From the IMG/VR virus record IMGVR_UViG_3300028837_003833, positions 62,001-126,000 of that record: a stretch of DNA of 64,000 nt; one strand, given 5' to 3'. The notes under the pieces were generated by a model. That model did not search any database. It saw only the letters and a list, made by a program, of their open reading frames with translations, and was not told the origin of the DNA. Within the stretch, counting starts at the first letter, position 1. Each line of letters starts with the position of its first letter. Positions 60,278-62,745 of this stretch are shown here, in pieces. The stretch is from a virus. The position numbers and the translations under genes are program-made.

Positions 60278-61103
60278 CCAGTAAAGTCCTTACAAACTCA
60301 TTTACATTATTTATATATTTGAAAAATTCCTTCTCTAATAAATCATCCACTTTTGCATCAGACACTACTAATGTCCGCTCACCAGATTTATATTGATCAT
60401 ATACTCTAAAAAGGTATGAAGAATTAAATCCTTTTTTAAGATCCGGTACCCTATCATTAATAAATTTTTTCAATTTTCTGGTTAAAATAATAGGGCTACC
60501 CTCTGTCTCAAATAACTGCTCCTTATATACCTGATAATCCTTTTTTATCTCTTCGGATAATTCTATTCTTTTCACGATAATATCATCATGAAATACCTCC
60601 TGCAGAGAAGTATCAGTAGCTACTGCCACTTTCTTAGCAAGCATGGAACAATCATATGGATTTACGTCCCCAATAACTTTAGCCCCCTGAAAAGCATAAC
60701 AATGGGGATACCCTAATAAACTTTTATCAAAAAAACTCCAGAGAAAATAACACCAATAAACATCCCTTTTTGTTAAAAAAGGATGCTCCTCAACTACTAA
60801 TTTATACCCCTTAAGAACAGTTTGATGCATATCAATGTTACGGTCCATTATATCGTTTAATCTAGGGTACTTTAATACAAAAAAATCATTTTCTGAGTTA
60901 TCCATAAACATTGGTATATTTACAGGATCCATAGTTTTTTCTAAAGGTAAAAAAGTATAGTCAGGTAAACTATCTTTTATAATATCTATATTAGGGCACT
61001 TTTTACCATAAACATAAAATTTACGTCCATAACCCTCGGAATACTTATTAATCTTATCAAGTTCATAGTTAAGATCGTCAGTTAAGATTACCCTACCCTT
61101 CAC
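60261..61103 (-). CDS. Unknown protein between ParB and PAPS-reductase-like genes
   Basis: 280 residues from a GTG at 61103, chosen because GGGAGG lies 6 bases upstream; ATG 61133 and 61160 would give longer products overlapping the ParB gene. The reading KGRVILTDDLNYELDKINKY is followed by FVLKYPRLNDIMDRNIDMHQ, PYDCSMLAKKVAVATDTSLQ and a helical C-terminus. No motif or family recognised. The tight overlap with both neighbours (11 and 17 bases) suggests that the three proteins work as one unit. Confidence 0.6.
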   Translation of the reverse strand: MKGRVILTDDLNYELDKINKYSEGYGRKFYVYGKKCPNIDIIKDSLPDYTFLPLEKTMDPVNIPMFMDNSENDFFVLKYPRLNDIMDRNIDMHQTVLKGYKLVVEEHPFLTKRDVYWCYFLWSFFDKSLLGYPHCYAFQGAKVIGDVNPYDCSMLAKKVAVATDTSLQEVFHDDIIVKRIELSEEIKKDYQVYKEQLFETEGSPIILTRKLKKFINDRVPDLKKGFNSSYLFRVYDQYKSGERTLVVSDAKVDDLLEKEFFKYINNVNEFVRTLLDATRT

Positions 61104-62745
61104 TATATACCTCCCAGGATTTACTATACTCATTATTAGCCAATATTTTTGCACAACCAATTTGCTGACGTAATCTTAACAACTCTTCACCTTCCATACC
61201 TAAATGATTGGCTATTTGTTCATCTGACCAGCCTTGCTCATATAGATCTTTAACAATAACCCCCATCAAATCCACCTGATGCCTTCCACGAGCTCTGTTA
61301 TGACGAATAGTCGAAGCCATTCTATCTTTTATGGATTTATCAAGAACAACAACAGGAACTTTACTACATTTAAAATGATTTATCAATACAGTATACCTGT
61401 GAAAGCCATCAATGACTATAAATTTATCCTGCTCAGGATCATGATAAACTACTATAGGCTGGGTAACACCATCTTCTTCTATGCTGTGTATAAGTAATTC
61501 CATTTCAGGAGCTGCTACTTTATTAGGATTATACCCATTACTTTGCACCTTAGATGCATCTACTAACTTTACAGACATACAAGGGAATTTTAATGAATCC
61601 ACCATAACACGCTTTCTCTTAGGCTCAATACCTAATGACCTACGTATACCCGCTATAGTATTTCTCCCAAAGCCGTACTTTTCACCAATTTCTACATCTG
61701 TCATACCACTCTTAAAATGCTCCTTAAGAACATCCTCCAGGGGCATTTTCCTAATATTTATCTTTGTCTTTAAACTACCTTCTTTTAATTTATTTTTTAT
61801 TCCTTCTATGTATAATTCTTTAGAATCTTTTATCGGGCACCCCAAATTTACTCTGTCTTCAACAAAAGAATCCCCCGAAAATCTTACTGGTATCTTAAGT
61901 TTATTACATAAATCCAAATGATATGATACAATATCTTTTACTGTATACCTATCAGGAACCTTATCCCCAGTAATTTTATATCTCATGGAAGGTATTATAT
62001 AAGGATCTATAAGGTTGTAAAAATGATCCCTACTCTCAGACTTAATGTAGATATTATAATAACCCTTTTTTATATCATGATTCTGCAGTGTAGTCTTCAA
62101 ACTAAATTTATTTTCCAAAGTATCTCGTAAATTATTTCCCTCTTCTTTTGTAACATTTCCTACGCATAAGTATGCCCCATATTCACTGTACTTTCCATCA
62201 TCCATATACCAAAAAGCTAATCCTTCAGGATCTATATCCGCTATTATATCCTCAAACATATATTTCTTATGCTTACCATGAGAATAAAATCTCTCAAAGT
62301 ATGGGATAAGATTGTCATGTCTATTTGTGTATACTTCAATGGCATTAACCTCTTTTTTGTAGTGGATGGAAGAAACATAAGAGTCTAAGCATTCCGCAAT
62401 GTGGTAAGTATATGGTAACTGACCCATACCATGTGTTACTCGGTAGTATTTTGGTTCCGACATACTAGCATCCCCTAATAATGTCCCAATAAGCATCTGG
62501 TGCATATGAGAAGATATAATAGGATTACTAATGCGGGTGTCGTTAAGTGGGGCCCTATAAACTATACCTAGGCACTTAATAATATGCTCTAATTGGTAGG
62601 ACTTCAGACCATAAGCGATACTAAGATCTTTAATAGTTAAGGTACCGCTTATAAGATGAGTCTTTATCTCTTCCTTAGAAAAAGTCCCATACTTATTATG
62701 AAGTATAAGATCGGTACCTTTTTTTTCAGTAAAAAATGAGGGCAT
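61093..62745 (-). CDS. LAGLIDADG endonuclease fused to a ParB-like domain
   Basis: 550 residues from the ATG at 62745 (MPSFFTEKKGTDLILHNKYG), chosen because AGGATAAAAATA precedes it; the longer frame to 62853 runs through the capsid terminator. Order: HTH (about 22-60), LAGLIDADG endonuclease (motifs MLIGTLLGDAS 84-94 and LAFWYMDDG 176-184, ending IPSMRYKI), second HTH (about 335-372: PLEDVLKEHFKSGMTDVEIG), ParB-like nuclease/CTPase domain (390-490: DGFHRY 446-451 and RHNRARGRH 481-489) and a C-terminal helix-turn-helix-like SDEQIANHLG. No intein ends are present. The ParB half is the IbrB-type partner of the PAPS-reductase-like gene. Confidence 0.8.
   Translation of the reverse strand: MPSFFTEKKGTDLILHNKYGTFSKEEIKTHLISGTLTIKDLSIAYGLKSYQLEHIIKCLGIVYRAPLNDTRISNPIISSHMHQMLIGTLLGDASMSEPKYYRVTHGMGQLPYTYHIAECLDSYVSSIHYKKEVNAIEVYTNRHDNLIPYFERFYSHGKHKKYMFEDIIADIDPEGLAFWYMDDGKYSEYGAYLCVGNVTKEEGNNLRDTLENKFSLKTTLQNHDIKKGYYNIYIKSESRDHFYNLIDPYIIPSMRYKITGDKVPDRYTVKDIVSYHLDLCNKLKIPVRFSGDSFVEDRVNLGCPIKDSKELYIEGIKNKLKEGSLKTKINIRKMPLEDVLKEHFKSGMTDVEIGEKYGFGRNTIAGIRRSLGIEPKRKRVMVDSLKFPCMSVKLVDASKVQSNGYNPNKVAAPEMELLIHSIEEDGVTQPIVVYHDPEQDKFIVIDGFHRYTVLINHFKCSKVPVVVLDKSIKDRMASTIRHNRARGRHQVDLMGVIVKDLYEQGWSDEQIANHLGMEGEELLRLRQQIGCAKILANNEYSKSWEVYSEG

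Follow-up and report, generated by a model that had tools for sequence, protein, structure and literature searches.

In the capsid-gene region of the window, a stretch of 64 kb from a 135,493-base IMG/VR virus record, a LAGLIDADG homing endonuclease is joined in frame to the ParB-fold protein IbrB. We consider it probable that this locus is a homing element carrying DNA-modification cargo in a slot behind the capsid gene, with IbrAB being one type of cargo. The window locus would then be one allele of a homing element whose slot lies directly behind the major capsid gene in a family of large tailed phages, and IbrB, orf299 and IbrA would be the cargo of this element, the reading frames of the endonuclease and IbrB genes, operon neighbours, having merged. 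When a relative without the element infects the same cell, the endonuclease would most likely cut the relative's capsid-gene region, recombination would then copy the element and its cargo into the cut relative, and the cargo would most likely serve a DNA-modification function. Cutting, its target site, modification and protection are what we infer from the architecture and contents of the slot, where the pairing of a cutter with DNA-modifying enzymes suggests a cut-and-protect competition device.

All genes of the slot lie on the minus strand. In the order of transcription they are the major capsid protein gene (62870-63754), which anchors the slot and is separated from the next gene by a terminator-like hairpin (62814-62845), the gene of the 550-aa fusion protein (61093-62745), orf299 (60261-61130) and the IbrA gene (59186-60277). 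The fusion ORF runs uninterrupted from the ATG at 62745 to the stop at 61093; an alternative, longer start exists at TTG 62853, but since a reading from there crosses the hairpin, the ATG is the better start. IbrA, a PAPS-reductase-like PP-loop protein (SGKDS) with a DUF3440 domain, matches phrog_2302 (E 6.3e-84) and belongs to the same operon as IbrB, with orf299 intervening. The position of orf299 between IbrB and IbrA is kept in five related loci (L025, L088 and L091-L093); neither Pfam nor PHROG identified this protein, and its predicted structure has a mean pLDDT of 54.1. NCBIfam gave nothing above the curated cut-offs for the fusion protein, orf299 or IbrA. Beside the ParB-fold gene there is no ParA gene, such as a ParABS partition protein would have; its neighbours are the capsid protein, orf299 and IbrA.

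The fusion protein consists of HTH1 (residues about 20-64, 62554-62688, from alignment and model), an I-SceI-like LAGLIDADG endonuclease domain with two motifs in a single chain (about 79-259, 61969-62511), HTH2 (about 334-376, 61618-61746), a flexible linker at the fusion junction (378-386, 61588-61614) and a complete IbrB (387-550, 61096-61587), composed of a ParB/sulfiredoxin-fold domain with a DGFHR motif and a helical C-terminus. An earlier note, made from the letters of this DNA, had described an in-frame LAGLIDADG-ParB protein, and the intact ORF and the matches to both parts bear this out: LAGLIDADG_2 (residues 83-242, E 7.5e-27) and ParB_N (392-475, E 3.2e-7) in Pfam, and the LAGLIDADG homing endonuclease family (77-259, 1.5e-16) and the ParB family phrog_2159 (377-547, 6.1e-62) in PHROG. 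The AlphaFold model has a mean pLDDT of 85.4, with values below 50 in runs of at least three residues only at 378-383 in the linker and at the terminal 547-550. In this model, helical HTH units (~24-58 and ~337-370) flank the LAGLIDADG fold on both sides, in agreement with the HTH-like segments noticed earlier. Foldseek ranked I-SceI first (target-normalised TM 0.72), followed by ParB/Noc. That the HTH is a duplicated one, as had also been claimed, is possible given the weak likeness of HTH1 to HTH2 (hhalign probability 79%, 28% across 40 columns), but a likeness of this size does not prove it. A third HTH-like stretch lies within the C-terminus of IbrB, at about residues 491-520.

The catalytic acids of both motifs were checked, as had been proposed. 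Motif 1 (MLIGTLLGDASM, 62461-62496) contains D92 and motif 2 (LAFWYMDDGK, 62191-62220) contains D183, which align with I-SceI positions 44 and 145, respectively. In the slot alignment of 63 rows, 60 rows have a residue at the first position and 62 at the second, and it is Asp in every case. The protein thus has two motifs, the catalytic Asp residues and an I-SceI-like fold, as a LAGLIDADG homing endonuclease should, while its C-terminal part shows full-length homology to free-standing IbrB and has the DGFHR motif. The endonuclease half is a complete and probably active HTH-LAGLIDADG-HTH homing endonuclease. We also considered an intein, which had been discounted before; this was rejected, as the fusion protein has no Intein_splicing or Hint match and its halves occur elsewhere as separate genes in split pairs.

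To describe what lies behind the capsid gene, we started from the best 80 of 343 capsid relatives and removed 18 with less than 2 kb past the capsid gene and 11 identical ones, leaving 51 distinct loci, 30 of which have a LAGLIDADG within 5 kb behind the capsid gene. Within these best 80 of 343, the endonuclease is fused to a methyltransferase-like domain in 21 of the 30 LAGLIDADG slots, to Mom in one (L014) and to IbrB in one (L025), and only unfused endonucleases are found in the other seven. Of these 30 slots, 26 contain a methyltransferase, Mom or IbrA/B, against 3 of the 21 loci without LAGLIDADG (Fisher p 2.8e-7, with relatedness ignored); the other four LAGLIDADG slots have no recognised modifier. 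In the same sample, IbrA/B occurs at four of the 51 loci, all with LAGLIDADG and none with a methyltransferase; no locus has both a methyltransferase and IbrAB, although this exclusion is not significant (hypergeometric p 0.07). A separate tally of 89 loci mixes those found with endonuclease and with methyltransferase queries; it is enriched by its queries and was therefore not used for rates.

We then scanned with an endonuclease-methyltransferase alignment and no capsid query. The best 80 of 153 loci yielded 43 distinct endonuclease-methyltransferase or -Mom ORFs, of which 36 start less than 1 kb behind a capsid gene and five at 1-5 kb; for the remaining two (L195 and L204), the retrieved sequence contains no such gene. 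Since the seed alignment was drawn from capsid loci, this second scan is capsid-blind rather than independent. Sixty-three slot ORFs (that of the window and 62 from loci having a capsid gene) were compared further, as were 58 control LAGLIDADG_2 ORFs from loci without a capsid gene; Pfam tallies refer to the matches listed, which cover 25 of 41 families for the slot ORFs and 25 of 60 for the control ORFs. Most rows of the slot methyltransferase-like domain show the motifs D..(A/C/G)G(F/Y/W)G.R and SPP(Y/F), and N6_N4_Mtase matches 17 of the 63 slot ORFs among the matches listed. SPPY/F is typical of N4 methyltransferases, and the nearest named phage relatives of the slot methyltransferase include proteins annotated as N-4 cytosine-specific DNA methylase. 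In the controls, HMMs found a methyltransferase, Mom or ParB/IbrB in none of the 58 ORFs, whereas 28 have an intein splicing domain among the matches listed; therefore, this nuclease family, as sampled here, does not generally pair with DNA modifiers.

The same arrangement occurs in a public huge phage genome of 485 kb (LR745208), in which a 1229-aa ORF with two LAGLIDADG domains and a methyltransferase lies behind the capsid gene. HMMs detected neither LAGLIDADG nor methyltransferase behind the capsid gene in the more distant Bacillus phage G and Tunturi_5; in phage G that place holds gp28 (L272:5952-6893), which by eye is nuclease-like with a zinc-finger-like start. Further variants occur. 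Tandem endonuclease-modifier fusions lie behind the capsid gene at L177:4935-9560 (methyltransferase, then Mom) and L135:2693-7527 (both methyltransferase), the ORF at L193:5954-7462 joins DUF7487 to a GNAT domain, and the slot methyltransferase at L052:6332-8554 has a repeated N-terminal region that resembles a PD-(D/E)XK nuclease by eye, with no Pfam match there.

The main rival to homing with cargo, which is the best-supported mechanism, is a single-chain weapon of restriction-modification (R-M) type, in which the modifier shields the phage's own DNA, the endonuclease cuts unmodified DNA of the host or of rivals, and the fusion links the two activities. Such a weapon would fit the finding that nucleases and modifiers are paired again and again in the slot, and that this methyltransferase is also fused to nucleases of other families (LAGLIDADG_3 in L206 and L191; DUF7487 in L196, at 1084-2958), and a passage in Iyer et al. 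2021 proposes such logic for jumbo-phage REase-Mom fusions (PMC7824862). However, L013 (1578-3365) retains its slot methyltransferase next to an N-terminal LAGLIDADG that has decayed and lost its acids, so the modifier outlives the nuclease and is therefore of value alone. Moreover, the sites recognised by LAGLIDADG enzymes are normally long and rare, and a protective modification would therefore not be needed. We thus regard the weapon as rather unlikely.

Close relatives differ in their slot contents, as expected for homing with cargo. The capsid protein of the window shares 97% identity with its counterparts in L009 and L016 (84-86% in DNA), and under these near-identical capsids the slot contains LAGLIDADG-IbrB in the window, a 911-aa endonuclease-methyltransferase in L009 and no element in L016; IbrB is absent from the contigs of both. 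In L070 and L073, a 316-aa endonuclease lies directly after the capsid stop codon, and it is absent in L065, L063, L064 and L072. L070 and L065 are 95-100% identical in the capsid gene and, beyond the first block following the insert, downstream, and farther upstream their identity is mixed, at 77-100% per block. The final four informative capsid sites of L070 are of the L064 type, a pattern expected from co-conversion. The example of presence and absence is that of a related free-standing endonuclease (L070) and not of the IbrB allele; what we observe for the window slot is allele exchange. The capsid gene itself is also interrupted in some relatives, by a group I intron at codon 32/33 in L003 (2954-3261, Rfam 61.3 bits) and by splits at the same codons in L021, L024, L177 and L235, where some of the inserts have LAGLIDADG ORFs. 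Beside the slot, the gene cluster at 50982-57560 is on the strand opposite to the capsid gene in the window but shares the strand of that gene in L009 and L016, which is either an inversion or an assembly effect.

Fused and unfused forms of the endonuclease and IbrB occur at the same place. Behind the same capsid gene, L088 and L091-L093 have an endonuclease of 377-381 aa, followed by an IbrB of 169-170 aa and orf299, and IbrA is also present wherever the contig extends far enough. In L088, 3 nt separate the two genes, and in L091-L093 the end of one and the start of the next share 4 nt (ATGA as read in L091 and L093). Fused forms are those of the window, of L025 (to which L026 is an identical copy) and of L003, whose contig stops within IbrB. 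Because L088 and L091-L093 carry the endonuclease and IbrB as adjacent separate genes, the 550-aa protein is, judging from these comparisons, the product of two neighbouring operon genes joined head to tail. The alternative that the endonuclease was inserted near the start of a ParB gene does not hold, for free IbrBs align as a whole to residues ~387-550, and residues 1 to ~380 make up a complete endonuclease. The named phage IbrBs in L004, L005, L006 and L008 have their own Met opposite residue ~387 and align through to the end, and the identity of the window's IbrB to the IbrBs of the five named phages in the alignment is 48-53%. The endonuclease module, including HTH2, occurs without the IbrB fusion in L040 (free-standing), L088, L091 and L094, and HTH2 is thus part of that module. 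A ParB domain accompanying every LAGLIDADG-HTH protein had been named beforehand as counting against the earlier reading; unfused LAGLIDADG-HTH proteins do exist, which likewise argues for a join of two neighbouring genes. A remnant of ParB in L094 and L095 was looked for and rejected, as the sequence past HTH2 is not IbrB in any frame.

The linker of the window has an in-frame ATG at residue 379, so internal starts could yield free IbrB, and by eye L025 and L003 have no in-frame ATG, GTG or TTG from HTH2 to the IbrB core. A tree of 14 endonuclease rows (four of 18 were omitted as long or duplicate) rejects the three fused rows as one clade (p-AU 0.0099) and entails at least three changes between the joined and split states; the direction of change is not readable from this tree, and gene exchange could mimic the pattern. 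A contig search returned 34 relatives whose best segment does not exceed 35% identity; the HTH1 and IbrB parts were matched by none of them, no close member is among them, and of the 220 named phage records that match query P0001 none covers 80% of it.

These changes of state, together with the lone endonucleases that occupy the slot in L069, L070, L073 and L085-L087, would also be expected if a selfish endonuclease had merely caught unrelated neighbours by chance and the fused genes were hitch-hikers. However, the cargo is non-random, both in the 26 of 30 LAGLIDADG slots with a modifier against 3 of 21 slots without LAGLIDADG (from the best 80 of 343) and in the 0 of 58 control ORFs in which HMMs found these modifiers, and we hold pure hitch-hiking to be quite improbable. 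Far less credible still is a domesticated endonuclease that has lost cutting and serves as a DNA-binding arm steering IbrB to its site, a capture also raised in the earlier note: HTH, LAGLIDADG and HTH ahead of IbrB would allow recognition of a long site, but this reading is disfavoured by the catalytic Asp, which at both positions is retained in all slot rows that are not gapped there (60/60 and 62/62), and also by L088 and L091-L093, in which the two are separate proteins, and by the lower conservation of the endonuclease half (46-51% identity between the window and L025, L088 and L091) than of IbrB (67-72%), with IbrA at 60-62%.

Turning to the cargo of the putative homing element, ibrAB of E. 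coli has a role as activators. By analogy with the sister alleles, we infer that IbrAB modifies DNA: where the window has IbrB, these alleles have a methyltransferase or Mom, which makes DNA modification the most likely role of the cargo. In L102, the endonuclease-methyltransferase ORF is truncated (424 aa) and IbrA and IbrB are intact, as if one cargo had replaced another. The first part of phrog_498, a family named DNA methyltransferase, matches IbrB (22-163 of 633), and its later part matches the slot methyltransferases. IbrA and IbrB genes are widespread in phages, and IbrAB also occurs in phages having no LAGLIDADG neighbour; the endonuclease is therefore not needed for the function of IbrAB. 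In L040 (9448-11817), IbrA is broken right after the PP-loop SGKD by a LAGLIDADG_3 intein (Intein_splicing 48.9 bits). ParB-like and PAPS-reductase-like proteins occur in DNA-modification systems, namely DpdB, and DndC and type 4 BREX, according to a passage that also gives DndC cysteines of its own (PMC12839542). However, there is no invariant cysteine among eight aligned IbrA proteins, and IbrA scores 28.1 bits against the DndC profile, far below the cut-off of 290.4; Dnd-like sulfur transfer is therefore unsupported for IbrA.

The occurrence of IbrB in the position of a methyltransferase or Mom yields a concrete and cheap prediction, that IbrAB modifies DNA, and the slot finding thereby makes the function of IbrAB testable. 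If homing endonucleases carry DNA-modification genes as cargo at one fixed place by the capsid gene, the slot is also a natural system for experimentally separating selfish cutting, self-protection and phage competition. A bolder version, which we offer tentatively and think doubtful, is that the slot holds a swappable cut-and-protect cassette, that IbrAB-orf299 is an unrecognised modification system, and that the fusion couples cutting to ATP-driven modification of self DNA.

The virus has other genes of related kinds. A 789-aa protein at 37939-40308 (plus strand), outside the capsid slot, joins a homing-endonuclease-like DUF7487 to a C-terminal Mom as a second endonuclease-modifier fusion and may be of the published REase-Mom kind. 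The 1260-aa glycosyltransferase at 43627-47409 (minus strand) has Hint/intein splicing matches slightly under curated cut-offs and probably contains an intein, and a second LAGLIDADG_2 lies in the record outside the window (G000:C1:24929-25453, minus strand), within a 1430-aa frame that reads like an intein-bearing helicase.

Among known systems, the monomeric I-SceI and I-WcaI share with the fusion protein two motifs in a single chain, the catalytic Asp, sequence similarity (E 5.3e-13 to 5.9e-10) and the fold; unlike them, the window endonuclease is not intronic, has an HTH on both sides and bears IbrB at its C-terminus. The phage IbrA/IbrB pair, annotated as co-activators of prophage gene expression, likewise has a full-length IbrB with IbrA in the operon, but in the window IbrB is fused to a homing endonuclease, orf299 intervenes and the position is behind the capsid gene. 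Searches of the open-licence PMC literature listed neither a LAGLIDADG-methyltransferase nor a LAGLIDADG-ParB fusion; one article, PMC8297831, contains the words 'LAGLIDADG domain fused'. In phage methylase insertion elements, homing elements also meet DNA methylases (Gosselin et al. 2023, PMC9957025; PMC11855218); there the methylase gene hosts the element inside (PMC9957025), whereas the slot endonuclease is whole and stands ahead of the modifier. The phiPA3 gp210 endonuclease, an intron-encoded HNH enzyme whose abstract does not mention modification cargo, serves competition among co-infecting phages, as we propose for the slot (PMC11620839). The jumbo-phage REase-Mom proteins also combine nuclease and modifier in one protein, with a proposed cut-and-protect logic (PMC7824862); in the slot, by comparison, the nuclease is a LAGLIDADG enzyme, the cargo includes a methyltransferase and IbrB, and the place, behind the capsid gene, is fixed.
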